In this document: one piece after another, positions 2,993 to 25,108 of the stretch
Layout: each line of letters opens with the position of its first letter
Numbering within the stretch: position 1 is the stretch's first letter
IMG/VR virus record: IMGVR_UViG_3300017986_000126
Coordinates: 1 to 25,108 of that record
DNA: 25,108 bases
Source: a virus
Strand: one strand, 5' to 3'
The notes under the pieces: generated by a model
Seen by the model: only the letters and a program-made list of their open reading frames with translations
What the model was told of the DNA's origin: nothing
Databases searched by the model: none
Made by a program: the position numbers and the translations under genes

Positions 2993-3576
2993 TGCGTCTT
3001 AGTATATGTGTTCCAGCACGTGATCAAGTCCACACGGCTTTTGCAATTAGTCTTGCTAATCTTACAAGCAGGCTCACAGCAAAAAATATAGATTATGAAT
3101 TGCATTTTGTATTAGGAAGTGTGATTGCAGAATCAAGAACTAGACTTGCTAACGAAGCACTTGATCACAGTGCAACACACATACTATGGTTAGACAGCGA
3201 CATACACTTTCCTGCAAATATTGTTGATAAGTTAAATTCTCACAACAAAGATATTGTTGCAGCAACATACAGCACACGCTATGCTCCTTATAAAAGTGTA
3301 GCATTTGTTGATCCAGATAACATTGATGCTAGACTTGAAGAAACTCGAGGATTGCATAGAGTTTGGGCAGTAGGAATGGGATGCATGTTAATGAAAGCAC
3401 ATGTGTTAGACATTCTGCCTAAGCCTTGGTTTAGTCATGAATACAATAAAAAATTAGACACCTTTGGTGGCGAAGATATATATTTTTGTAACCAAGCAAT
3501 GCATCACGGAATATTAGTACACGTCGATGCAGATATTAAAATTGCACATATAGGAAGTAAGGCAAACGTATTATGA
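2992..3576 (+). CDS. Small GT-A fold glycosyltransferase (family 2-like)
   Basis: A 194-residue protein that begins with the first strand of a GT-A fold (LSICVPARDQV). It has a hydrophobic strand ending in the metal and nucleotide-sugar binding D-x-D motif (ILWLDSDI, Asp68 and Asp70), then an AVGMGCMLM segment, an acidic FGGEDIYF motif near residue 160 (typical of the general base region) and a late His (KIAHIG). This is a compact but complete-looking catalytic core; no membrane segment is present, so it should act in the cytoplasm. Substrate cannot be inferred. It is coupled to the next gene by an ATGA overlap, and that next gene carries repeated, mostly degenerate glycosyltransferase-like units. 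Together they may modify a virion protein, such as the fibres encoded just upstream, or a host glycan. Confidence 0.75.
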   Translation: MRLSICVPARDQVHTAFAISLANLTSRLTAKNIDYELHFVLGSVIAESRTRLANEALDHSATHILWLDSDIHFPANIVDKLNSHNKDIVAATYSTRYAPYKSVAFVDPDNIDARLEETRGLHRVWAVGMGCMLMKAHVLDILPKPWFSHEYNKKLDTFGGEDIYFCNQAMHHGILVHVDADIKIAHIGSKANVL

Positions 3577-6182
3577 GAGCTATTGACAGATTCAATCGTT
3601 TTGGAACAGAAGTATACAATGGGCAAGACCAATTAAAAAATCATATTTTTGATCATTATCCTGTTGTACACACCGAAGAAGAAATCAGCGATTGGCAAAA
3701 CTCTAGCGAATACGTTTGGTTAGTAGATTCAAACATAAAAGTTTATGATAGTTTTCCTTGGTACTTCAAACCTAACCCCGACGAAGAAAAATCTATTCAT
3801 GCATTTCCTTATGTATACAAGGAAAGCAGAGAAGTTAAAAGTTGGGAAATGGTGCGATTAGTTCCTACTGCAACTGGCAACTACAGTACAAAGAAATACA
3901 AATACATTTGCGGTGATTATGACGTATATCAAGGCAAAGATTCGTTTGATATCTTTTATGTGTCAGATGATCCAAGAGATTATTTTTCAGAATTACAAAA
4001 ACGTTTTCCAAATATTATCTATGTCAACAGCATTAAAAAAGCAAAAGAATTAACACAAACCGATATGTTCTGGGTTATTCCAGGTGACGTAATTGTTAGA
4101 GATACATTTAAATTTAGTTACAAGCCTGACGAATGGAGTCACGACTATGTACACGTATTTGGCAACGGCGACATTGATCAATTAGACGGTGTAATTCTTT
4201 ATCCTAAAAATTATGATGCAACAGAAAAAGAATTAGAGTATAGATTTTTCAAAGATAAAAAAGAAGTGCGTATTATGGCAAGTACTCCACGCCAATACGA
4301 CAAATTTGAAATCAACAACTACGAACAATATCAACATGCATTAAAATATAGTTCTACCGATATGTTTTGGGGCATACCACAAGACATTGAAGTTACTGAC
4401 GAAAGTGTATTTGATTTGTATATTAGCCATCACAGCAAAGACACAGAAAAAAATCATGTATGGTTAAACGGAAACAAATATGACGGTGTTGTTCTTTTTA
4501 GTAAACACGCTCCTGTTACAGAAAAAGAAATCAAACACAGATTTGTAGTTAACAGAATTGAACACAATCAAATTGTAAGTTGCAACAAAACGTTTGATAG
4601 ATTTGTAGTTGACAATTACGAAGATTATCTCGAAGCAAAAAAACATTCAACTACATCAATGTTTTGGATGATTCCTTCAGATGTAGTACAATCCGAAGAG
4701 TTTGCATGGGATGGATATTTTGAAAATCAAGATGCATTAGATCGAACAACTACACATGTATTTTTAAATGGTGAGCACACAGACGGTATTGTATTAACCA
4801 GTGTTAACAGCAAACTTACACAAAAAGAAGTTGACAATAGATTTTACATTGATAAAAAAGAACACAATGTAATTGCAAGTACTCCGTTTCCATACGAACG
4901 GTTTGAAATTAACAATTACGAACAGTACACGGAAGCACTGTACAATTCCAAGTATCAAATGTTTTGGGGTGTGCCCAGTGACGTAGAAATAACCAACGAC
5001 AAGTTGTTTGATACATATTTTAGTCATCATAACAAATACGATAGAACTATTAATCATGTTTTCTTAAACGGAGAAAACTACGATGGTGTTGTATTGTTCA
5101 GCAAAGACTGTTTGGTGAGCGAAAAAGAAGTTGATCATAGATTTTATGTGAAGAAAAAAGAATGGGATGCTGTTATTAGTAAACCTAAAAAGTTTGATGT
5201 GTTTAGAATTGACTCGTATGCAGAATACGAATCAGCAAAAGAAAATTCTACAACAGACATGTTTTACTTGGTTTACAGCGATATTGATGTATTAGATACG
5301 TTTAAGTTTGATCATTACATTAGTCATCATAATCAATATGAACGTAAAATAAATCACGTATGGAAAAATGGCGAATACTATGATGGTATTGTACTAACAA
5401 GTAAACACATACATTTGACTCCTAGAGAAATTGATTTTAGATTTATGGCAATCAAAAAAGAATATGATGAAATTGCTAGTATGCCTAAAAAATATGAAGT
5501 TGTGTTTATTAGTAATGGCGAACAGAATGCTGATGATAACTATGAGAAATTACTAGAAAAGGTAGATGCTTGGAGAGTTGATCGTGTTAAAGGCATTCAC
5601 CAAGCACATATTGCAGCAGCAGAAAAAGTTAGTACAGAAATGTTTTGGGTAGTTGACGGCGATGCAGAAGTATTAGATGACTTTGAGTTTGACTATCAAA
5701 TTGCACACTATGACATTGATGGTCGTAATACTGTACATGTATGGCGTAGTTTTAATCCAATTAACGGACTAGTGTATGGCTACGGCGGTGTAAAATTATT
5801 ACCAACTGAGTTAACTAGAAATGTTGACATTGATGCACCGGATATGACAACAAGTATTAGTAATAAGTTTAAGGGCATTAATAGAATGAGTAATACTACT
5901 GCGTTTAATACAGATGCATTTAGTGCATGGCGTAGTGGTTTCCGTGAATGTGTAAAACTTGCAAGTCGTGCAATTGATCGACAAAACGACGAAGAAACAG
6001 AGTTTAGACTTAACGCATGGTGTGATCGTGGTGCAGATAAACCGTTTGGTGAATATGCTATTGCTGGTGCAAAATTAGGACGCAAATACGGCGAAATTTA
6101 CAAAGATAACAAAGAAGCACTGGCAAAGATCAACGACTTTGAATGGTTGAGAGAACAATTTAATCTATCGTCATCTCAATAA
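3573..6182 (+). CDS. Large protein of repeated, degenerate glycosyltransferase-like units with one intact unit at the C-terminal end
   Basis: An 869-residue protein made largely of one module. The core of each unit is MFW-(4 residues)-D, then an NHVW/VHVF strand, then a YDGVVLFSK-like strand and a basic HRFxxxKKE segment. Unit cores start at residues 165, 264, 363, 463 and 563, a spacing of 99-100 residues, with a weaker copy near residue 47 and a last, longer unit at 690. Only the last unit keeps a D-x-D pair (VVDGDAEV, Asp695 and Asp697). The first Asp is Pro in units 1-4 and Tyr in unit 5, while the copy near 47 has D-S-N. The C-terminal 120 residues hold Trp/Cys/Arg-rich segments with no clear family. 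The start overlaps the upstream glycosyltransferase stop (ATGA). The repeat is directly visible. Relation to GT-A enzymes is inferred from the D-x-D unit and the neighbour; the repeats may bind glycan or act as scaffold. The 3' end overlaps the convergent Nudix gene by 23 bases. Confidence 0.7.
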   Translation: MRAIDRFNRFGTEVYNGQDQLKNHIFDHYPVVHTEEEISDWQNSSEYVWLVDSNIKVYDSFPWYFKPNPDEEKSIHAFPYVYKESREVKSWEMVRLVPTATGNYSTKKYKYICGDYDVYQGKDSFDIFYVSDDPRDYFSELQKRFPNIIYVNSIKKAKELTQTDMFWVIPGDVIVRDTFKFSYKPDEWSHDYVHVFGNGDIDQLDGVILYPKNYDATEKELEYRFFKDKKEVRIMASTPRQYDKFEINNYEQYQHALKYSSTDMFWGIPQDIEVTDESVFDLYISHHSKDTEKNHVWLNGNKYDGVVLFSKHAPVTEKEIKHRFVVNRIEHNQIVSCNKTFDRFVVDNYEDYLEAKKHSTTSMFWMIPSDVVQSEEFAWDGYFENQDALDRTTTHVFLNGEHTDGIVLTSVNSKLTQKEVDNRFYIDKKEHNVIASTPFPYERFEINNYEQYTEALYNSKYQMFWGVPSDVEITNDKLFDTYFSHHNKYDRTINHVFLNGENYDGVVLFSKDCLVSEKEVDHRFYVKKKEWDAVISKPKKFDVFRIDSYAEYESAKENSTTDMFYLVYSDIDVLDTFKFDHYISHHNQYERKINHVWKNGEYYDGIVLTSKHIHLTPREIDFRFMAIKKEYDEIASMPKKYEVVFISNGEQNADDNYEKLLEKVDAWRVDRVKGIHQAHIAAAEKVSTEMFWVVDGDAEVLDDFEFDYQIAHYDIDGRNTVHVWRSFNPINGLVYGYGGVKLLPTELTRNVDIDAPDMTTSISNKFKGINRMSNTTAFNTDAFSAWRSGFRECVKLASRAIDRQNDEETEFRLNAWCDRGADKPFGEYAIAGAKLGRKYGEIYKDNKEALAKINDFEWLREQFNLSSSQ
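4011..5490 (+). repeat. Five tandem ~300-bp coding repeats inside the 869-residue gene
   Basis: The codons for the MFW/MFY core fall at 4065, 4362, 4659, 4959 and 5259, spaced 297, 297, 300 and 300 bases. The copies have diverged at DNA level but keep protein landmarks (FEINNYEQY, MFWGVPSD, YDGVVLFSK). Boundaries are approximate. The regular period points to tandem duplication of one module. Confidence 0.8.
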
Positions 6183-17271: not shown

Positions 17272-17619
17272 ATGGCTGAAGAAGATATTAGTACGTCAAT
17301 TAAAGAATTTTTTGATAGAAATCTAAATGACAAAATTTCATTTAGTTCTAACCAAGTAGACAGTGTAGTTGGATTTTTTAAAAAACGTGGGTTTGATGAT
17401 GTAGCAGCAACAAATGTAGCAAGTGTTATATTGCAACAAGCCAAAAGAGACAATACTAGTGTTTTTAAAATTGTTGATACATTAAAAGGATTAACAGAAA
17501 TTCAACTTAGTAATTTAGTTGCAACAATTTTAAATAACAACAGAAGTAAAATTAGCAACATAGGTTTTGCACAAATATCATCTACAGAAACCAAAGATTC
17601 GAGAAACGTTAAACTGTAA
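17272..17619 (+). CDS. Hypothetical protein, 115 residues
   Basis: A small protein starting MAEEDISTSIKEFFDRNLND, 5 nt after the previous stop, with a weak AAGG ribosome site inside the preceding stop region. It looks mostly helical (VVGFFKKRGFDDVAATNVAS, then LKGLTEIQLSNLVATILN) and ends with a short polar tail. No catalytic motif, signal peptide or membrane segment is evident. Its stop overlaps the gp4 start (TAATG), so it is translationally coupled to head completion. I do not recognise the family with confidence; a small virion or assembly protein is a guess from position. Confidence 0.7.
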   Translation: MAEEDISTSIKEFFDRNLNDKISFSSNQVDSVVGFFKKRGFDDVAATNVASVILQQAKRDNTSVFKIVDTLKGLTEIQLSNLVATILNNNRSKISNIGFAQISSTETKDSRNVKL

Positions 17620-18056
17620 TGGCACATTTTGCACAAGGAAAATATGCATTAAAGAATCCTGAAAAATACATAGGAGGAAGAACACCTACCTATCGTAGTA
17701 GTTGGGAGTTTGCATTTATGCGTTTTTGTGATTTAAATGAAAACATATCAAAATGGGCAAGCGAAGCAGTACGCATTCCATACAGACATCCTTTTACAGG
17801 AAAGTTTACAATATATGTTCCAGACTTTTTTATTGTGTACACAGACAAAAAAGGCAAAGAACATGTTGAACTTATTGAAGTAAAACCAAGTAATCAAACC
17901 TTCAAAGAAAATCTAGGACGTAGCAAAGCAAATCAAGCACACTACGTTATCAATCAAGCCAAATGGCAAGCAGCAAGAGCATATAGCAAACAAAAAGGAA
18001 TCACCTTCAGAGTAATAAATGAAGGAGATATTTTCCACCAAGGAAAACGTAGATAA
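17619..18056 (+). CDS. gp4: Head completion nuclease gp4
   Basis: A 145-residue protein matching T4 gp4 along its length as I remember it: QGKYALKNPEKYIGG, TPTYRSSWEFAFMRFCD, WASEAVRIPYRHPFTGK, YVPDFFIVY and a late AYSKQKGITFRVI. Candidate nuclease residues are Glu30, Asp69 (in VPDFF) and Glu87-x-Lys89 (in IEVKP), the D...E-x-K arrangement of the TnsA-like restriction-endonuclease fold. In T4, gp4 acts with gp2 on filled heads so that the neck can attach. It is coupled to the small upstream gene by a TAATG overlap, and its stop codon lies within the late promoter motif of gp16. Confidence 0.9.
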   Translation: MAHFAQGKYALKNPEKYIGGRTPTYRSSWEFAFMRFCDLNENISKWASEAVRIPYRHPFTGKFTIYVPDFFIVYTDKKGKEHVELIEVKPSNQTFKENLGRSKANQAHYVINQAKWQAARAYSKQKGITFRVINEGDIFHQGKRR

Positions 18057-18059: not shown

Positions 18060-18087
18060 ATAGTAGTATATAACGGAAAGCTACTAT
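18060..18087 (+). promoter_or_regulatory. Hairpin over the gp16 start codon
   Basis: ATAGTAG (18060-18066) can pair with CTACTAT (18081-18087), a 7-bp stem that holds the first two bases of the gp16 ATG (18086-18088). The 14-nt loop contains GGAAAG, the only ribosome-site-like sequence. Transcripts from upstream would carry both arms; those from the late promoter at 18052 would lack most of the 5' arm. The stem is AU-rich and so only moderately stable. Confidence 0.45.
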
Positions 18088-18577
18088 GACTAAAAAATTA
18101 GAAGAAATGTTAAACTTGCCCGACAACGAAGACATTGTCGAAAATTCTAAATCTAAAAAAGAAACTGCTATCATAGAGCAGGAAGATACATTCAGAGATA
18201 TTGCTGAATTTGATAAAATAGCCAGTGCATTGCCAGCTGTAAAAGGGCTTGGAGAATTAGCAGACAAAGAATTAAACGAAGTTGCTGATAAAGCTATGCA
18301 AGCATACGAGGAACTAATGGATCTTGGTATGAACGTAGAAAGTCGTTATAGTGGTAGAGTTTTTGAAGTAGCAGGCGGCATGTTAAAAACATCGTTGGAT
18401 GCTAAAGTTGCTAAATTAGATAAAAAACTTAAAATGGTAGAACTACAACTTAAAAAAGAAAAAATGGACAGAGATGCAGGCCAAGGTGACGGCGACTTTG
18501 TCAACGGTGAAGGGTATGTAGTAACGGACAGAAATAGCTTGCTGGAACGCCTTAAAGGCATGAATAATGATAAATAA
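18086..18577 (+). CDS. gp16: Small terminase subunit gp16
   Basis: A 163-residue protein, almost the length of T4 gp16 (164). It has an acidic disordered start, a long helical centre (LNEVADKAMQAYEELMDLGM, then SGRVFEVAGGMLKTSLDAK running into a Lys-rich coiled coil) and a short C-terminal TDRNSLLERLKG tail. This order fits T4-type small terminases, where the tail segment resembles the GSPTELMDEI region of T4 gp16. Small terminase oligomers recognise concatemeric DNA and control gp17. It follows gp4 and has its own late promoter and start-codon hairpin. Gp17 is about 3.2 kb downstream rather than adjacent. The family match is by remembered pattern, supported by context. Confidence 0.72.
   Translation: MTKKLEEMLNLPDNEDIVENSKSKKETAIIEQEDTFRDIAEFDKIASALPAVKGLGELADKELNEVADKAMQAYEELMDLGMNVESRYSGRVFEVAGGMLKTSLDAKVAKLDKKLKMVELQLKKEKMDRDAGQGDGDFVNGEGYVVTDRNSLLERLKGMNNDK
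18569..18576 (+). promoter_or_regulatory. Late promoter core GATAAATA for the 185-residue gene
   Basis: GATAAATA overlaps the gp16 stop codon (AAT GAT AAA TAA) and lies 21 nt before the next ATG. AGGA at 18585-18588 is the ribosome site. The start sits in a 10-bp palindrome, CATTGCAATG (18591-18600). Confidence 0.65.
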
Positions 18578-18597
18578 TACAAATAGGATCCATTGCA

Positions 18598-19155
18598 ATG
18601 AAAAAATTTACAGATTATTTAACTGAGTCTAAAAAGACTTATGAATTTAAAATAGGTATAGCAGGTGAACTGCCGGAAGGATTTGACAATAGTCTCGAAA
18701 CTGCACTACAGAAGTTTGGACTTGTTAAAGTAACTGCTGGCAAAAAAACACCAATACAAGAACGTCCACTAGACTTTCCACAGTTAGAAAATACAGAAGT
18801 TACTTATTGGGAAGCTGAGGTTTCATATCCTACTACTCCATTAGCATTGCAAGAGTATTTGGGTCATTGCTGTGATGTTCCGAGATATAATGTAATTGTA
18901 CGTAATCCTAACGAACCGCAAGAGCTTTATCAAGAAGAAAAAGAAGAAACAGAATATGAAGTTAAGCTAACCAAAGAAGAAATGGAAGGCGAATCAGCAC
19001 AAGATAAAGTTGGTGGCAATCATGTAATGGATCTATTAAAAGAATTAGAAGCTGCACGTAAAGAACGTGCAAATGATTATATCGGCGATGCTCCTGTGGG
19101 AGAAAGTAAAGATATCAGCGATACTGAAAACTCAAAAAGTGTTGTAGGAGGCTAA
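18598..19155 (+). CDS. Probable internal head protein with T4-type capsid-targeting N-terminus
   Basis: A 185-residue protein starting MKKFTDYLTE-SKK. This closely parallels the 10-residue capsid-targeting sequence of T4 internal proteins (MKTYQEFIAE): Met-Lys, two aromatics at the same positions, and an L-x-E site with Glu at residue 10, where the gp21 protease cuts. The rest has a beta-alpha-beta look (YEFKIGIAGELPEGF, then LETALQKFGLVKVTAG, TPIQERPLDFPQL, TYWEAEVSYPTTPLALQEYL), then an acidic, probably disordered tail. T4 internal proteins are packed in the head and injected with DNA, often to defend against host systems. I know similar sequences from marine T4-like phages without an assigned function. 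Internal packaging is inferred from ten residues. Confidence 0.6.
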   Translation: MKKFTDYLTESKKTYEFKIGIAGELPEGFDNSLETALQKFGLVKVTAGKKTPIQERPLDFPQLENTEVTYWEAEVSYPTTPLALQEYLGHCCDVPRYNVIVRNPNEPQELYQEEKEETEYEVKLTKEEMEGESAQDKVGGNHVMDLLKELEAARKERANDYIGDAPVGESKDISDTENSKSVVGG

Positions 19156-19156
19156 T

Positions 19157-21688
19157 ATGAAAATCTTCGAGGTCACTAGTAGAACTAAAAAAATAATCAA
19201 TGAAATCACAGCTGAAGATTTGTTAGCAGGTCTTAGAGATCGTTTAACCAGTAGAAATTATGATCGTACCGTAAGTTGGATCGAAGATGACTATAATAAC
19301 TTTGCAACACAAGAAGATGTTGATCGCTTTCTACAAGACGCTGCAGAATCTCATGACAACTTTTTTCAAATGCCGTATGCTCGTGCTGCTAGAGAAGCAT
19401 TATTTGCTGTAAATGTTAGTGCAGGTCGAGTTGAAGATACAGGCGAAGAGCCAATTGTACCATTAGATACAGTAACAGACGATCCTGAAGCAGCCAACCA
19501 AGCTGCCGCCGATGCAGCAATTGATAGTCGTATGAATAGCGATGCAGCAGCACCAAGTGAAACACCGGCACCGGCATCTGTTAGAGATTTAGGCAATGGG
19601 TTTGAACAAATAACAACTACAGTTCTCGGTCAAGAAGTTACAGGTGTGCGTGACACTAGATCAAATCTTGTGTTTGTTAGAAATCAAGACAGTGACGGCA
19701 ATGCACTTATTCGTAGTCCTGCTCAATATCTTCAACTAGGCGACAACGGCCAATTAAGAGGTACTACTCCAGGTCCTGAAACTATGAGAGCGTTAACACA
19801 AGCAGGAATCGGTCCTGAAGGCAACGACGAACCAAGCACAGGTCCGGATGACGGATCAAGAGCAGGGCAAGAACCAAACAGACCAGTTACAGCACCAGAG
19901 CCTCAAGGAGATCCATTAGGTGGCGAAGCACCAACAGGTCCCGGCGGTGATGAACCATTACCGCAAACAAGAACAGAACCGAGAACAGCAGCACCGCAAC
20001 GTCAATCTGGTGAATTTAATGCAGACGGTACTGTTGCTGGACCTGGTCAAGCAGCAAGACCTGGTTCAATGACTAGAGGTGCAACACCTACCCAAGCTAA
20101 TGCAAATAGAAATACTCAAGCACCAAGCAGATTACGTATTAGACAAACTATTGCTCCAGCAGTACAAAGATTACTACAATTAGCAAACGAATCGATTGTT
20201 GGTTATAGAGCTATTGTAGAAGGCAAGTCGGTGTTAGAAGCACTCGATCCGCCACAACGTCAACAACTACAACAATACTTAGATCAGATGCGAGCAGCAG
20301 CACAAAACGATCCTGAAGTAAACAACGAGTTTGGCGACCTGATGGCTCGTATGGAAAGAGCATTAGGTATAACACAACCGCAATCGGGTGCAGGCGATGA
20401 AGCAGCAGCACAAGCAGCAATAGCACAACGTCAGGCAGGAACACCAGCACCAGGTACAGGCAGTCTTGATGCAGCTCAAGCAAGTGCCCAAAGGGCTCCA
20501 GCAGCATCAGCAGCATCAGCAGCACCAGCAGCACCAGCAGCAGTATCAGCAGCACCGGCAGCAACACAAGGTAGATATAGTGTTAGAAGAGAAAACGCAG
20601 GTGGACGTCAAATGTTTGCTATTATTGATGGCGAAACACGTATGCCTGCACGTTTAAGAAGTACCAATGTATATTATAATACACAAGAAGAAGCACAAGC
20701 AGTAGCAGATAGATTAAATCAAAACAATGTTCAAACTGTACCACGTGTAGGCGAACCAGGAAACGAAATACCAGGTCAAACTAGTGCAGCACCACAGACA
20801 TCTCCTCGCCCACAAGCAAGACCAGATCAAGCAGCACCAAGTGGATCAGAAGATGACGCAATGGCACAACCAGTTGCTCAAAATGCAGCAAGTCAAGCAG
20901 CAACAGCAAATGCTCAAGATTTTACACTAACTGGTAATTTACGTAGAGGTAGTAGTGGTCCAGAAGTTGAGCAATTACAACGTGCATTAGGTTTCCAAGA
21001 TGCAGAAGTTGATGGACGTTTTGGTCCAAGAACAGAACAAGCTGTAAGAACATTCCAACAAAACCAAGGACTACAAGTAGATGGTATTGTTGGTAGACAA
21101 ACTTACAACAAGATCTTACAAACAAGAGAAGATCCAAGAGCACAGCGTAATGCAGGTGTAGGAAGAATTGGTCAAGTTGCAGCACCAACACAACAAAATC
21201 AAAGTATAGATATGACAGGAAAAGAAATGGCAAAATTAGATGAAGCAAGTTTAACAGTAAATGGTTCAGCAAGCGAAATTGCAGAGCTAATGCGTATGAT
21301 GCAATTAGCAGGTGCACCAAGTGCAAAACCTGTCGACAGCGATGATATTAGTAGTCACATACACAAACCAGAACCATCACCGTGCGGTGCTAAACCAGAA
21401 CCGAGCATGGGAGATATGATTAGCATGATCAGCAAAGAAGAGGAAGAAGTAGATGGCGACTTCCAAGATGCTACAACTGAACCAGATAACTATTATCAAG
21501 ATGTAAGTGCTAGTATTCCTTCGGGCAATGATTTAAACAGACCTAAAGATCGTAAAGCAATACGTACAGTTGATCCTGCATTAGAAACAACTTTAAAAGA
21601 TAGTTTGTTACAAGCATATGAAGGCAAGTACAAATCGGATGCACAGCGTAAAGCTATTTGGGCATCTAAATCAGAAAAGAAGAAATAA
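19157..21688 (+). CDS. Large Pro/Ala/Gln-rich virion protein with a peptidoglycan-binding domain
   Basis: An 843-residue protein with the strongest ribosome site of the window (AGGAGG at 19146-19151, 5 nt before ATG). Order: a helical N-terminus (MKIFEVTSRTKKIINE...); long low-complexity Pro/Ala/Gln/Thr-rich linkers (about 205-330, 400-470, 525-588); a small compact unit at 472-524 (GRYSVRRENAGGRQMFAIID to EAQAVADRLNQNN); and a clear PG_binding_1 domain at 591-655 (LRRGSSGPEVEQLQRALGF, then VDGRFGPRTEQAVRTFQ and VDGIVGRQTYNKIL). A segment near 695-720 (LDEASLTVNGSASEIAELM) and an acidic-to-basic tail follow. No lytic active site is visible, so it binds rather than cuts the wall. A role in the injected or tail-tip apparatus is inferred. 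A terminator follows it directly. Confidence 0.68.
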   Translation: MKIFEVTSRTKKIINEITAEDLLAGLRDRLTSRNYDRTVSWIEDDYNNFATQEDVDRFLQDAAESHDNFFQMPYARAAREALFAVNVSAGRVEDTGEEPIVPLDTVTDDPEAANQAAADAAIDSRMNSDAAAPSETPAPASVRDLGNGFEQITTTVLGQEVTGVRDTRSNLVFVRNQDSDGNALIRSPAQYLQLGDNGQLRGTTPGPETMRALTQAGIGPEGNDEPSTGPDDGSRAGQEPNRPVTAPEPQGDPLGGEAPTGPGGDEPLPQTRTEPRTAAPQRQSGEFNADGTVAGPGQAARPGSMTRGATPTQANANRNTQAPSRLRIRQTIAPAVQRLLQLANESIVGYRAIVEGKSVLEALDPPQRQQLQQYLDQMRAAAQNDPEVNNEFGDLMARMERALGITQPQSGAGDEAAAQAAIAQRQAGTPAPGTGSLDAAQASAQRAPAASAASAAPAAPAAVSAAPAATQGRYSVRRENAGGRQMFAIIDGETRMPARLRSTNVYYNTQEEAQAVADRLNQNNVQTVPRVGEPGNEIPGQTSAAPQTSPRPQARPDQAAPSGSEDDAMAQPVAQNAASQAATANAQDFTLTGNLRRGSSGPEVEQLQRALGFQDAEVDGRFGPRTEQAVRTFQQNQGLQVDGIVGRQTYNKILQTREDPRAQRNAGVGRIGQVAAPTQQNQSIDMTGKEMAKLDEASLTVNGSASEIAELMRMMQLAGAPSAKPVDSDDISSHIHKPEPSPCGAKPEPSMGDMISMISKEEEEVDGDFQDATTEPDNYYQDVSASIPSGNDLNRPKDRKAIRTVDPALETTLKDSLLQAYEGKYKSDAQRKAIWASKSEKKK
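20496..20563 (+). repeat. GCA-rich triplet repeat coding an Ala/Ser/Pro linker
   Basis: Imperfect repeats of GCAGCATCA and GCAGCACCA encode a run of Ala with Ser, Pro and Val inside the 843-residue protein. It is a flexible-linker microsatellite that may vary in length between related genomes. Confidence 0.7.
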
Positions 21689-21707: not shown

Positions 21708-21734
21708 AATAGCACCTACGGGTGCTATTTTTTT
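21708..21734 (+). terminator. Intrinsic terminator between the internal-protein gene and gp17
   Basis: AATAGCACC (21708-21716) pairs perfectly with GGTGCTATT (21721-21729) across a TACG tetraloop closed by C-G, the very stable UNCG type. Seven T residues run through 21728-21734. It ends the upstream unit 14 bases before the gp17 ATG. Confidence 0.92.
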
Positions 21735-21735
21735 G

Positions 21736-21743
21736 AGTAAATA
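21736..21743 (+). promoter_or_regulatory. Probable late promoter core AGTAAATA for gp17
   Basis: AGTAAATA begins two bases after the terminator T tract and ends 4 nt before the gp17 ATG at 21748. It departs from GATAAATA at the first three bases, but gp17 needs a promoter here because the strong terminator precedes it, and no other candidate fits. The spacing predicts a leaderless message. Confidence 0.4.
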
Positions 21744-21747
21744 TAGT

Positions 21748-23328
21748 ATGAGTAAAAGTTTAGACGGCGTTTTAACTAAAAAAGCCAATCAAAAAGAAAC
21801 CTATACAGAATCACAAATACAGGATCTATTACAATGTATGGATCCTGATGTAGGATATTTGTATTTTGCAAGACATTTTGCACATATTCAACACCCTGTA
21901 AAAGGCAAACTAATATTCGATCCTTTTGAATATCAGTTAAGATTAATGCATAGTTACCATAACTATCGCTTTAATATTAATATGATGCCTAGACAAACAG
22001 GCAAAACTACTTGTGCTGCCATTTACTTGGCATGGTATGCAATGTTTAAACCTGACCAAACTATTCTAATTGCAGCACACAAGTACACTGGTGCACAGGA
22101 GATTATGTCACGTATACGTTATGTATATGAACTTTGCCCAGACCATATACGTGCAGGTGTTACTAGTTATAACAAAGGCAGTATGGAATTTGAAAATGGT
22201 TCACGTATTATAAGTCAAACAACTACAGGCACTACAGGACGTGGTTTGTCTATCTCACTACTATACTGTGACGAGTTTGCGTTCGTGCAACCTAACATTG
22301 CAGAAGAGTTTTGGACTTCGATTTCACCTACACTAGCAACTGGTGGTCGTGCTATTATTACAAGCACACCTAACAGTGACGAAGATACATTTGCTACTAT
22401 TTGGAAACAAGCAGAACAAAAGTTTGACGAGTATGGTAACGAAAGTGACATAGGTGTTAATGGTTTCCATGCATTTAGAGCACACTGGGCTGAACATCCA
22501 GACCGTGACGAGGAATGGAAGAAAAACGAAATTGGTCGCATTGGTGAAGAAATGTTTAGACGAGAATACGAATGTGAATTCTTAATCTTTGACGAAACAC
22601 TCATCAACAGTTTAAAACTTGCTGTACTAGAAGGCATTGATCCAAAAATTAAAATGGGACAAGTGCGTTGGTATAAAAAATTAGATCCTAAAAAATCATA
22701 TGTTATCGGACTTGATCCTGCAATGGGCACTGGCGGCGACCATGCAGCAATACAAGTTATTGAATTACCAACATACGAGCAAGTAGGTGAATGGCAACAC
22801 AATACCACAGCAATACCGGGCCAAATAAGAGTATTAAGAGATATATGTACATACATTGCCAGCGAAACAAACAACAGTAGTAACATATATTGGAGTGTAG
22901 AGAACAACGGTATTGGCGAAGCAGCATTATTAGTAATACAAGATTTTGGTGAAGAAAATATTCCAGGATTGTTTATCAGCGAACCAATACGCAAAGGTCA
23001 TGTACGCAAGTTCCGCAAAGGATTTAACACTACACATAGTAGTAAAGTTACAAGTTGTGCTAGACTAAAAACTATGATAGAAAATGATAAACTTATTATT
23101 AGAAGCAAAGCATTAGTCAGCGAGCTAAAAGCATTTGTAGCAAGTAGTAGTAGTTTCCAAGCAAAGCCAGGACACAGTGATGATTTAGTTAGTGCTTTAA
23201 TTCTAACACTACGCATGATGAGTGTAATGAAAGATTGGGATCCTACAGTATACAATACTTTTAGTCAAATTGAACAAGACGATGATTACGAAATGCCCAT
23301 GCCGATATTCGTAAGTAGCAGTTATTAG
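21748..23328 (+). CDS. gp17: Large terminase subunit gp17 (packaging ATPase/nuclease)
   Basis: A 526-residue protein from the ATG at 21748; an in-frame TTG at 21733 lies in the terminator T tract and is less likely. The ATPase domain has the Q-containing Walker A MPRQTGKTT (Gln83, Lys86) and the Walker B LLYCDEF (Asp175-Glu176), followed by the coupling segment IITSTPNS. The RNase H-like nuclease domain has Asp323 in VIGLDPAMG, a central SVENNG and the final GHSDDLVSALIL (Asp478-Asp479). It is somewhat shorter than T4 gp17 (610 residues). It docks on the portal, pumps DNA into the head and cuts it at the end. No ribosome site precedes it; a promoter-like AGTAAATA ends 4 nt before the ATG, just after a strong terminator. 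Confidence 0.95.
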   Translation: MSKSLDGVLTKKANQKETYTESQIQDLLQCMDPDVGYLYFARHFAHIQHPVKGKLIFDPFEYQLRLMHSYHNYRFNINMMPRQTGKTTCAAIYLAWYAMFKPDQTILIAAHKYTGAQEIMSRIRYVYELCPDHIRAGVTSYNKGSMEFENGSRIISQTTTGTTGRGLSISLLYCDEFAFVQPNIAEEFWTSISPTLATGGRAIITSTPNSDEDTFATIWKQAEQKFDEYGNESDIGVNGFHAFRAHWAEHPDRDEEWKKNEIGRIGEEMFRREYECEFLIFDETLINSLKLAVLEGIDPKIKMGQVRWYKKLDPKKSYVIGLDPAMGTGGDHAAIQVIELPTYEQVGEWQHNTTAIPGQIRVLRDICTYIASETNNSSNIYWSVENNGIGEAALLVIQDFGEENIPGLFISEPIRKGHVRKFRKGFNTTHSSKVTSCARLKTMIENDKLIIRSKALVSELKAFVASSSSFQAKPGHSDDLVSALILTLRMMSVMKDWDPTVYNTFSQIEQDDDYEMPMPIFVSSSY

Positions 23329-23342: not shown

Positions 23343-25108
23343 ATGATAAAATTAGACGCAATAGCAGAACAACTTTTTAATAAAATTAGAGGACGCTTTC
23401 CTGAAGTTACAATAGGTGATGAAGAAGGCACAATTACCAATGAGCCTGCATTGGCTAGATATTTTGATTTTGCATACACTGTAGGCAATAACGAAAGTAT
23501 TGGTAAAATTAGTATTAGTCTTGACGAGGAAGAAGGTCTAACTGTTATTTTCAGCAAAGACTTTGTAACTGAAGCAATCAAAGATGACTGGTATAGATTT
23601 TTAAAAGAACTTCGTGAATTTAGTAAAAAGCGTCTAATGAAGTTTGAAGTAAGAGATATTAACAGATCAAACTTAACAAAACGAGATTATAAATTTTTAG
23701 CTGCAAATCGCTCTGGAGAAACAACAATGGCCGAATCAAAAATGTATGGAACAACTAAAACTAGTTTCCAAAAGATAGGAAATGCACGTTTAGCTATTAA
23801 GCATACTGCACCTATCAATACCGAAAGTGCAACTGGTAGATCACAAAAAATTAAAAGCATCTACATTGAGTCGCCTGAAGGTGAAAGATTTAAATATCCT
23901 TACAAGCATCTAAGTGGTGCTAGAGCAATGGCAGTACACGTAAGCGAAGGCGGCAATGCATATGACGATTTTGGCAAATACATTAGCGGACTAAGCGAAG
24001 AATTAAGTAAACTACGTAAATTTAACCAATACATGAGTCGTAGTAGTGTTATGGCCGAAACACTATCTACATATACAGACATTGTTAAAGAGCGTGTATC
24101 AACAATTAAAAAAGAAATTTCTAATCTACAAAAACCGGCATATTACAAAGAAACATTTGAAACATTTGAACCAAAGATTGTAGAAGATGTTCCAACTGAT
24201 GTACAAGATGCTTGGGTAGAACAACTAACTATTAAACAATTCAATGAAGAATTAAAAGATGTATTTCCATATGTTTACAACCTAGTAGGCGAAAACACTG
24301 TTAAAGAAATTAAGCTAGAAGATATTATTAGCGAAGGCCCAGGAGTAACAGAACCAACAGGCGATGCAGGCCAATATCCAGAAGTTAACTTTAATCCACG
24401 TGCAGGACAAATGGATCAACCAATGCATCCACAAAATGCTGGATTAACTAGAGATAACCCAGGAAGTGAAAACTATATTGTACAAGCAGGCGATACTGTG
24501 TATGCAATATCAAAAAGATTTGGTGTAGCAGTAGAAGACATTATTGAAGTTAACGGACTAGACGACAAAGGCTCAATAAGAGTAGGCGACGAATTAGTTA
24601 TTCCTACAGTAGGCGAAAGCATTATGTCAAAGGCATTCGAAGCAGCAGTTGAAAAGGTCCTAGGACAGTTTGGAAGTTTACAAGAAGCAGAAGGATGCCC
24701 TTGTAATACTCCTCCGGGTGGTAAATGCACATGCCCACCAAATTGTAAAGACTGTAATTGTAGTACAAACGAAAGCAGCGATTTAAAAAGAAAGCCAACA
24801 ATTCCTCTAGGTGAATTTATACTTTCATACTTTGATCGTGCAACAGGCCAGTTTCCAAAAGGTCCAACAGCCGTACTTACTATGGTAGAAAAAGAATACG
24901 GAGAACGATTTGTAAGGCCAGCACACCAGTTCATAGAACGCATAGACGCAAGAGTTGCAGAAGTAATGGGCTACAGAGAGGCGGAAGAAGAAATTCAAGG
25001 CCAAGTTGATCAGGTATACGAGTTTATGGGTGTAGATAGTAAAGACGAAGTTGACCAAAACCTAATGAAAGCAATTCAGAAAAAGTTTGGTACAAAGCCA
25101 GTAGGTGA
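23343..25108 (+). CDS. LysM-domain virion protein with a Cys cluster, 3' end missing
   Basis: The frame is open from the ATG at 23343 to the window end (588 codons), so the gene is incomplete. Residues 1-350 are a mixed domain that I recall as a conserved but unnamed family of marine T4-like phages; landmarks are SIYIESPEGERFKYPYKHLS, GARAMAVHVSEGG and SKLRKFNQYMSRSSVMAE. Residues 377-422 form a clear LysM domain (YIVQAGDTVYAISKRFGV, then NGL and RVGDELVIPT) that binds peptidoglycan N-acetylglucosamine. At 452-473 there are seven Cys in 22 residues (C-x-C, C-x-C, C-x3-C-x2-C-x-C), a possible metal site. The rest is helical and acidic. No signal peptide is seen. With the peptidoglycan-binding protein on the other side of gp17, a particle-borne role in cell entry is likely but inferred. 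Confidence 0.72.
   Translation, partial: MIKLDAIAEQLFNKIRGRFPEVTIGDEEGTITNEPALARYFDFAYTVGNNESIGKISISLDEEEGLTVIFSKDFVTEAIKDDWYRFLKELREFSKKRLMKFEVRDINRSNLTKRDYKFLAANRSGETTMAESKMYGTTKTSFQKIGNARLAIKHTAPINTESATGRSQKIKSIYIESPEGERFKYPYKHLSGARAMAVHVSEGGNAYDDFGKYISGLSEELSKLRKFNQYMSRSSVMAETLSTYTDIVKERVSTIKKEISNLQKPAYYKETFETFEPKIVEDVPTDVQDAWVEQLTIKQFNEELKDVFPYVYNLVGENTVKEIKLEDIISEGPGVTEPTGDAGQYPEVNFNPRAGQMDQPMHPQNAGLTRDNPGSENYIVQAGDTVYAISKRFGVAVEDIIEVNGLDDKGSIRVGDELVIPTVGESIMSKAFEAAVEKVLGQFGSLQEAEGCPCNTPPGGKCTCPPNCKDCNCSTNESSDLKRKPTIPLGEFILSYFDRATGQFPKGPTAVLTMVEKEYGERFVRPAHQFIERIDARVAEVMGYREAEEEIQGQVDQVYEFMGVDSKDEVDQNLMKAIQKKFGTKPVG

Follow-up and report, generated by a model that had tools for sequence, protein, structure and literature searches.

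Does a ten-residue T4-style start mark an uncharacterised phage protein as cargo that is packaged in the head and injected into the host? This question is raised by an open reading frame, here called X, found in a 25,108-nucleotide stretch of viral DNA (positions 1 to 25,108 of IMG/VR record IMGVR_UViG_3300017986_000126), which is referred to below as the window. The original prediction had proposed X as a candidate anti-defence or takeover protein. The analysis presented here points instead, with about even confidence, to a conserved and constitutive head-associated virion protein whose leader is of the scaffold/gp24 type and is probably trimmed in the clade of the window.

The X reading frame, its model and its surroundings

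X is read on the plus strand from an ATG codon at 18598 to a stop codon ending at 19155 (18598..19155). It encodes 185 amino acids and is assigned to the virion structural family PHROG 14802 (E 4.4e-7), the match spanning residues 1-145 and profile positions 1-150 of 179; Pfam gave no match to X at E 0.1. The start codon is preceded by an AGGA ribosome-binding site (18585..18588, plus strand), also read in the sequence, with a spacing of 9 nt to the ATG. The leader, MKKFTDYLTE (18598..18627, plus strand), is delimited by the comparison with T4, by conservation and by a predicted helix. To judge from the sequence, a putative cut would fall after Glu10, between 18627 and 18628, and residue 11 is a serine. 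Two elements of the original prediction are upheld at this level: a ten-residue T4-style start with L-x-E, whose length and chemistry match those of the T4 internal proteins IPII and IPIII, and a remainder of 175 residues, as confirmed by the 185-residue frame and its ribosome site.

The AlphaFold2 model of X, obtained from an input of 53 sequences (mean pLDDT 66.9), consists of a helix at residues 4-11, a predicted ferredoxin-like beta-alpha-beta-beta-alpha-beta domain at residues 15-102 (18640..18903, plus strand) and an acidic tail at residues 109-185 (18922..19152, plus strand; pI 4.35), which is mostly of low confidence and includes a predicted helix at 141-158. The protein as a whole is acidic, with a computed pI of 4.6. 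Since the modelled helix precedes the domain, the leader would be placed as expected for a removable or docking element, residues 1-10 being of low confidence (mean pLDDT 67). No PDB entry matched the fold of this model at E 1e-3 or better, and a second look returned generic ferredoxin-like folds only, aligned over about residues 11-108 with Z of at most 8.5, which is uninformative on relatedness. In BFVD, ten entries reached that threshold, mostly nameless, one of them a relative from Atu_ph07, and the matches beyond those ten are weaker and mixed. Ip7 of phage MX01 (rank 19, E 3.8e-3, 14% identity) was set aside as a relative of X, many unrelated proteins scoring like it in the same search.

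Upstream of X lie a gp4-like head completion (head closure) nuclease (17619..18056, plus strand; phrog_218, E 9.6e-41; PF08722) and a small protein with a weak small-terminase match (18086..18577, plus strand; phrog_16202, E 3.4e-13; phrog_445, E 3.2e-5). X is followed by a gene designated X+1, described further below, and by a gp17-like large terminase subunit (21733..23328, plus strand; phrog_36964, E 1.5e-119; PF03237).

Conservation of the leader among close relatives

Genes of the related contigs were called with a simple in-house ORF caller, which gave 850 distinct proteins from 100 loci, grouped in 154 families; these contigs are fragments, which bears on any count of leader-bearing proteins. 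The strict motif M-K-x-[FY]-x-x-[FY]-[LI]-x-E, with which the original prediction had proposed to look for further proteins of this kind, occurs in 38 of the 850, all of them X, and no second family emerged. A looser DNA pattern, M-[KR]-x-[FY]-x3-[LIVMF]-x-E, was applied to 16 records, namely 14 IMG/VR contigs (842 kb in total), PA5oct and Vibrio phage 2.275.O. It falls at X in all 14 IMG/VR contigs, X being the only gene start so marked. A second match in contig G004 was discarded as a further leader, being an internal in-frame stretch of another gene, presumably of LysM type; a further match in Vibrio 2.275.O has a stop codon inside, and none was found in the PA5oct record.

Scored by BLOSUM62 against the starts of the T4 internal proteins, the X family shares first rank among the 154 families with an unrelated singleton, a 103-aa protein of locus L168 which we take to be NifU-like and whose start we regard as a chance match. 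A start resembling those of the T4 internal proteins can therefore arise by chance. The position of the motif was also considered. Of the 31 families with at least five members, only X (54/54) and the scaffold (5/5) place the Glu of [LI]xE precisely at residue 10 in the majority of their proteins. As a control, a fixed [LI]xE within residue 18 was found in 9 of 54 families with at least three members, including one, seemingly SSB-like, in which it stands at residue 6 in 19/19. On these comparisons of sequence, the resemblance of the X leader exceeds chance within the clade.

Leu8 and Glu10 are kept in all 81 distinct X proteins of the clade (62-100% identity), a sample of close relatives only, drawn from the best 80 of 592 and the best 80 of 587 matches. 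These 81 are what remains of 83 distinct proteins from 164 loci once PA5oct/MIJ3 and Vibrio are removed; in the full 83, Leu8 and Glu10 are each present in 82, the exception being PA5oct. Ser11, Lys12, Tyr15, Phe17 and Lys18 are about as conserved, so that conservation alone cannot single out the cut site. In a set of 81 complete X sequences that includes PA5oct and Vibrio, a mean column entropy of 0.99 bits was obtained for residues 1-10, an intermediate value, since the other segments run from 0.42 to 1.39: 0.56 for residues 11-21, 1.39 for 22-46, 0.42 for 47-66, 1.02 for 67-110, 1.25 for 111-140 and 0.99 for 141-185.

The X family in named phages and in their particles

A tblastn search with X retrieved 12 phage records, comprising 11 Pseudomonas phages related to PA5oct and Vibrio phage 2.275.O, and the Vibrio copy, used as query in turn, retrieved 56, among which are GAP32, CBB, BF, RaK2, 121Q, PBECO4, Munch, XaC1, XbC2, Atu_ph07 and Phosso. 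The GAP32 orthologue matches PHROG 14802 at 1.6e-106, a family whose members include GAP32_204, CBB_210, RaK2 gp488, 121Q 557 and PA5oct gp282. X is a protein of T4-related jumbo phages of the PA5oct/RaK2-type branch and of relatives from the environment. When the PA5oct or the Vibrio orthologue served as the single query in IMG/VR, pattern matches came up but no relatives, and none were found either in a collection of bacterial and archaeal genomes scanned with the alignment of the family.

X was compared in 13 named phages outside the clade and in MIJ3, whose copy is identical to that of PA5oct. The order head completion/closure gene, small protein, X is found in PA5oct, GAP32, CBB, RaK2, 121Q, XaC1, Munch, BF, Kaldavass and XbC2; MIJ3 and Vibrio 2.275.O have the same arrangement with genes otherwise named or nameless, and Phosso and Atu_ph07 keep it with inserted genes. 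The large terminase lies close 3' of X in the window, PA5oct, MIJ3, Phosso and Atu_ph07, and was not seen near X in the examined stretches of the RaK2-like phages. Conservation of the family, in sequence over the full length as well as in position, extends to phages of Pseudomonas, Vibrio, Xanthomonas, enterics and Agrobacterium. Members of the family are homologous over X residues 1-145 and differ between lineages in Glu10 and in the tail. Across lineages, mean identity is 0.35 in residues 2-15 and 0.27 in the domain. The leader is thus only mildly more conserved than the domain, as a value this high is attained by 8 of 78 windows of the same length. Atu_ph07, with its start taken upstream, and the window are identical at 10/14 positions in residues 2-15 and at 17/92 in 16-107; PA5oct and GAP32 share 1/14 in residues 2-15.

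The annotated start of Atu_ph07 gp113 (L189:9001-9756, NC_042013), placed at L189:9088, is probably too late, and reading from an ATG further 5', which has a ribosome site, yields the X start MKTLQDYLTESKKCY, close to that of the window. That of RaK2 gp488 (L183:11929-12549) lies 72 bases 5' of a start supported by a ribosome site, MINLQKILTD, at L183:12001. The 16.20 kDa of phAPEC6 gp270c compares with 16,204 Da computed for 121Q X from Met38; with this mass match and a fitting gene number, gp270c may correspond to X, its annotated start being placed too late.

The original prediction had X packaged in the head, should the signal be real. Orthologues are found in virions. The record of PA5oct gp282 carries an ESI-MS/MS note, and CBB_210, equated with X by tag and position, is one of 55 proteins of CBB virions, with 13 unique peptides and 60.5% coverage, compared with 21 unique peptides and 68% for the major capsid protein (PMC5259590). 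These two observations place X orthologues in the particle. In CBB, X reads LTPEYSYR from residue 11 onward, and an intact N-terminal tryptic peptide would be ILTELTPEYSYR. The MIJ3 record labels X structural, and four proteins are named from mass spectrometry in the available portion of the MIJ3 article, X not among them (PMC6892783); gp113 is absent from the main text of the Atu_ph07 report of 131 virion proteins (PMC6102473). The accessible parts of the literature on the family, leader and processing yielded nothing on the N-terminus of X.

Leaders of T4 and of the jumbo-phage scaffold

In the T4 record, IPII and IPIII start MKTYQEFIAE/A (a slash marks the site), and they resemble X in the ten-residue leader, in its hydrophobic and acidic pattern and in an [LI]xE at residue 10. 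IPI starts differently, MKTFKEFTST, and has I-T-E only at residue 19. The orthologues of X are unremarkable when compared with these starts, proteins scoring as high numbering 18 in CBB, 15 in 121Q, 51 in RaK2 and 25 in Vibrio. Gp24 of T4, a shell protein related to the major capsid protein, starts MAKINELLRE/S and has in common with X, compared over the leader only, ten residues that end in L-x-E/S. Because this shell vertex protein carries such a leader as well, the motif points to the prohead and not specifically to cargo.

The scaffold of the RaK2-like phages has a leader of this kind as well. Munch and BF have the protein annotated as such; in the others the label is assigned from position before the major capsid protein. 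The starts are MSKLDKFLNE/S in CBB and BF, MSKLDKFLKE/S in Munch and XaC1, and MTKLEKLLKE/S in RaK2; among the scaffolds compared, the Glu of [LI]xE stands at residue 10, and at 11 in PA5oct. In CBB, the scaffold start MSKLDKFLNE and the X start MNKLQKILTE are of equal length, identical at 6 of 10 residues and have their Glu at the same position. The two proteins differ beyond this point: the RaK2-like scaffold is about 370 aa long and contains additional [LI]xE sites, whereas X has a folded domain. Proteins that match the scaffold start at least as well as X number 1 of 616 in CBB, 2 of 611 in 121Q, 3 of 551 in RaK2 and 5 of 505 in Vibrio 2.275.O. This ranking covers four of 11 named records, as whole genomes called with the in-house ORF caller, PA5oct being left out because its scaffold leader has 11 residues; the four genomes share ancestry, and their rankings are therefore not independent. 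In the clade of the window, the scaffold starts MLDALKSLFE/N or near it and shares with X its length, Leu8 and Glu10. A leader common to X and its own scaffold was nevertheless rejected for this clade, X ranking 12 to 14 of 154.

Loss of Glu10 and the head protease

Outside the clade, Glu10 is present in five of the 13 named phages (Vibrio 2.275.O, GAP32, CBB, 121Q and Atu_ph07). It is replaced in the other eight, by Asp in RaK2, BF, XbC2 and Kaldavass, by Ala in XaC1 and PA5oct, and by Ser in Munch and Phosso. Conservation of Glu at P1 and of Leu or Ile at P3, though complete in the clade (81/81), does not extend to all X orthologues. Twelve of the 13 retain the hydrophobic pattern M-x-x-[FL]-x-x-[YFI]-L, the exception being PA5oct, with Tyr at residue 8. 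Proteases of the gp21 type cut after Glu in T4, phiKZ, 201phi2-1 and SPN3US (PMC5694885). The major capsid proteins of six phages without Glu10 (PA5oct, RaK2, BF, XaC1, Munch and Phosso) have three [LI]xE sites in their first 60 residues, so that a shift in protease specificity is not indicated.

A gp21-type protease was found in PA5oct, in Vibrio 2.275.O and in 5 of the 14 related contigs, which are fragments, and the major capsid protein of the relatives has [LI]xE sites near its start. The protease, major capsid protein, scaffold-position protein and portal of PA5oct gave no match at E 1 to the 25-kb window, which is therefore a fragment as regards head genes. Two observations were made around these genes. 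PA5oct gp333 (L176:32921-33142), a 73-aa structural protein encoded between portal and protease, starts MKINDIITE/G and so provides a further prohead-type leader, in a phage that has lost the one on X. In loci L193, L194, L195 and L196, an acidic core-like protein with repeated ATDEEVDE-type runs is encoded 5' of the protease.

Proposed role of X in the particle

In the preferred reading, the leader of X is a short amphipathic helix like those of the RaK2-like scaffold, of T4 gp24 and of IPII/IPIII. This helix would probably dock X on the scaffold core or on the inner face of the shell during prohead formation, and a gp21-type protease would then trim the X of the clade after L-T-E. The mature head would keep the ferredoxin-like domain and the acidic tail, presumably on its inside, and in lineages without Glu10 the helix would remain on X. 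The simplest account of the family is a helix that is important everywhere and is cut in some lineages only, or else is not cut at all. The latter alternative would suit a neck, head-completion or tail-junction protein, in which the helix serves as a structural or interaction element and L-x-E is incidental and never cut; this is a substantial possibility, if a less probable one. It agrees with the location of X in the packaging/tail cluster, among gp4, the small terminase-like protein and tail tube genes and outside the portal-protease-major capsid protein cluster, a location that speaks against the preferred reading. The replacement of Glu10 by Asp, Ala or Ser while the capsid sites persist in six phages, the presence in virions of a PA5oct X devoid of L-x-E, and the fixed near-start [LI]xE of the presumably SSB-like control family all argue in the same direction. 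Against a never-cut motif stand a Glu10 that is invariant in 81/81 proteins of the clade and recurs in Vibrio 2.275.O, GAP32, CBB, 121Q and Atu_ph07, and the likeness of the X start to that of the scaffold in RaK2-like genomes.

X might also be a gp24-like or decoration-type shell component that loses its ten-residue leader at maturation, an explanation which we consider unlikely. Gp24 does lose a ten-residue N-terminal peptide to the protease (PMC9958956), extra unassigned densities are described in the capsids of 121Q and phAPEC6 (PMC5646251, PMC7247149) and CBB_210 is well covered in virions, but the structure searches with X gave no fold link to a shell or decoration protein, the fold being generic. 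More doubtful still is an injected protein of the T4 internal type that would counter host defence or serve takeover of the cell. The internal proteins of T4 differ widely among themselves and share only the capsid-targeting sequence (PMC3012670), and the three of them block distinct GmrSD variants (PMC12373910). The fit of the leader to IPII/IPIII, the first rank among the 154 families of the clade (tied with a singleton), the presence of relatives in virions, the small size and acidity of X and a weak BFVD match to MX01 Ip7, shared with many like-scoring unrelated proteins, would all suit such cargo. In contrast to the T4 proteins, however, which share the leader alone, X is conserved over its full length and, as entropy and synteny indicate, is neither diverse nor accessory outside its leader, in phages of hosts as different as Agrobacterium and enterics. 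Its strict leader is not shared by several unrelated proteins as in T4 but is confined to the X family among the 850 proteins called on these fragmentary contigs. With Glu10 lost in 8/13 named phages and comparable leaders on scaffold and gp24, it is unlikely that X is accessory cargo of the T4 kind directed against defence. A leader constrained in the clade, orthologues in virions, and a protease and capsid sites in relatives support the original prediction in part; a role as variable injected cargo is not supported.

If X is a prohead substrate, as the preferred reading has it, T4-style ten-residue leaders would be general in head assembly of the T4 superfamily and would be carried by conserved structural proteins as well as by cargo. 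Motif scans for injected anti-defence proteins would then need a second filter, which would ask whether the protein varies beyond its leader. Since some orthologues have Glu10 and others lack it, they form a natural series in which leader docking can be separated from cleavage.

The hypervariable neighbour X+1

The gene that follows X (X+1; 19157..21688, plus strand) encodes 843 aa with a PG_binding_1 domain (PF01471) at residues 600-652, detected by Pfam. It is hypervariable among relatives, in which the length of the protein ranges from 200 to 852 aa; PG_binding_1 was found in 9 of 10 relatives scanned, mostly the longer ones, as well as in the window copy. The PA5oct gene at this position encodes a structural protein with an ESI-MS/MS note. 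An [LI]xE with its Glu within residue 16 is present in 41 of 61 distinct X+1 N-termini vs 106 of 577 (18%) in other families, a count in which the start rules differ between the sets, a few starts look miscalled and kinship is uncorrected.

Of 46 complete X+1 proteins, 41 match a profile of the C-terminal domain. The match extends to the start of the domain in 23 of these, and a script found [LI]xE there in 20; two more boundary sites, LNE in L161 and LKE in L153, lie just beyond the window of the script, and L061 has V-N-E. The boundary motif is seen in 0 of 8 further proteins with a slightly later profile start, and the start of the domain is unseen in ten. As a candidate site, the boundary [LI]xE belongs to one subfamily, which includes the X+1 of the window. 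There, the codons of L-D-E (21236..21244, plus strand; residues 694-696) would form a putative prohead-protease site before the C-terminal domain. This site stands at residue 696 of 843 in the window and at residue 6 in L088 and L115.

X+1 looks more like swappable cargo than X does. The two genes might form a cassette, with X as the constant docking partner, provided with its prohead-type leader, and X+1 as a swappable payload freed in the head by the prohead protease. The variable part of X+1, of up to about 690 residues and often with a peptidoglycan-binding domain, would have a short [LI]xE peptide on its N-terminal side and, in one subfamily, the boundary [LI]xE on the other, beyond which the constant C-terminal domain would lie; once freed, the payload would be ejected into the host envelope or cell. 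Such a cassette is judged improbable, its weight being lowered by the absence of the boundary site from the other subfamily. X+1 would be a better place than X to seek delivered proteins in these phages.

Two other genes of the window deserve mention. After the terminase, 23343-25106 encodes a LysM-domain protein that matches the virion structural family phrog_13484 (E 1.2e-16) and has I-A-E at residues 7-9. At 3573-6182, an 869-aa protein contains several repeats of about 100 residues with MFW.IP.D-like motifs.
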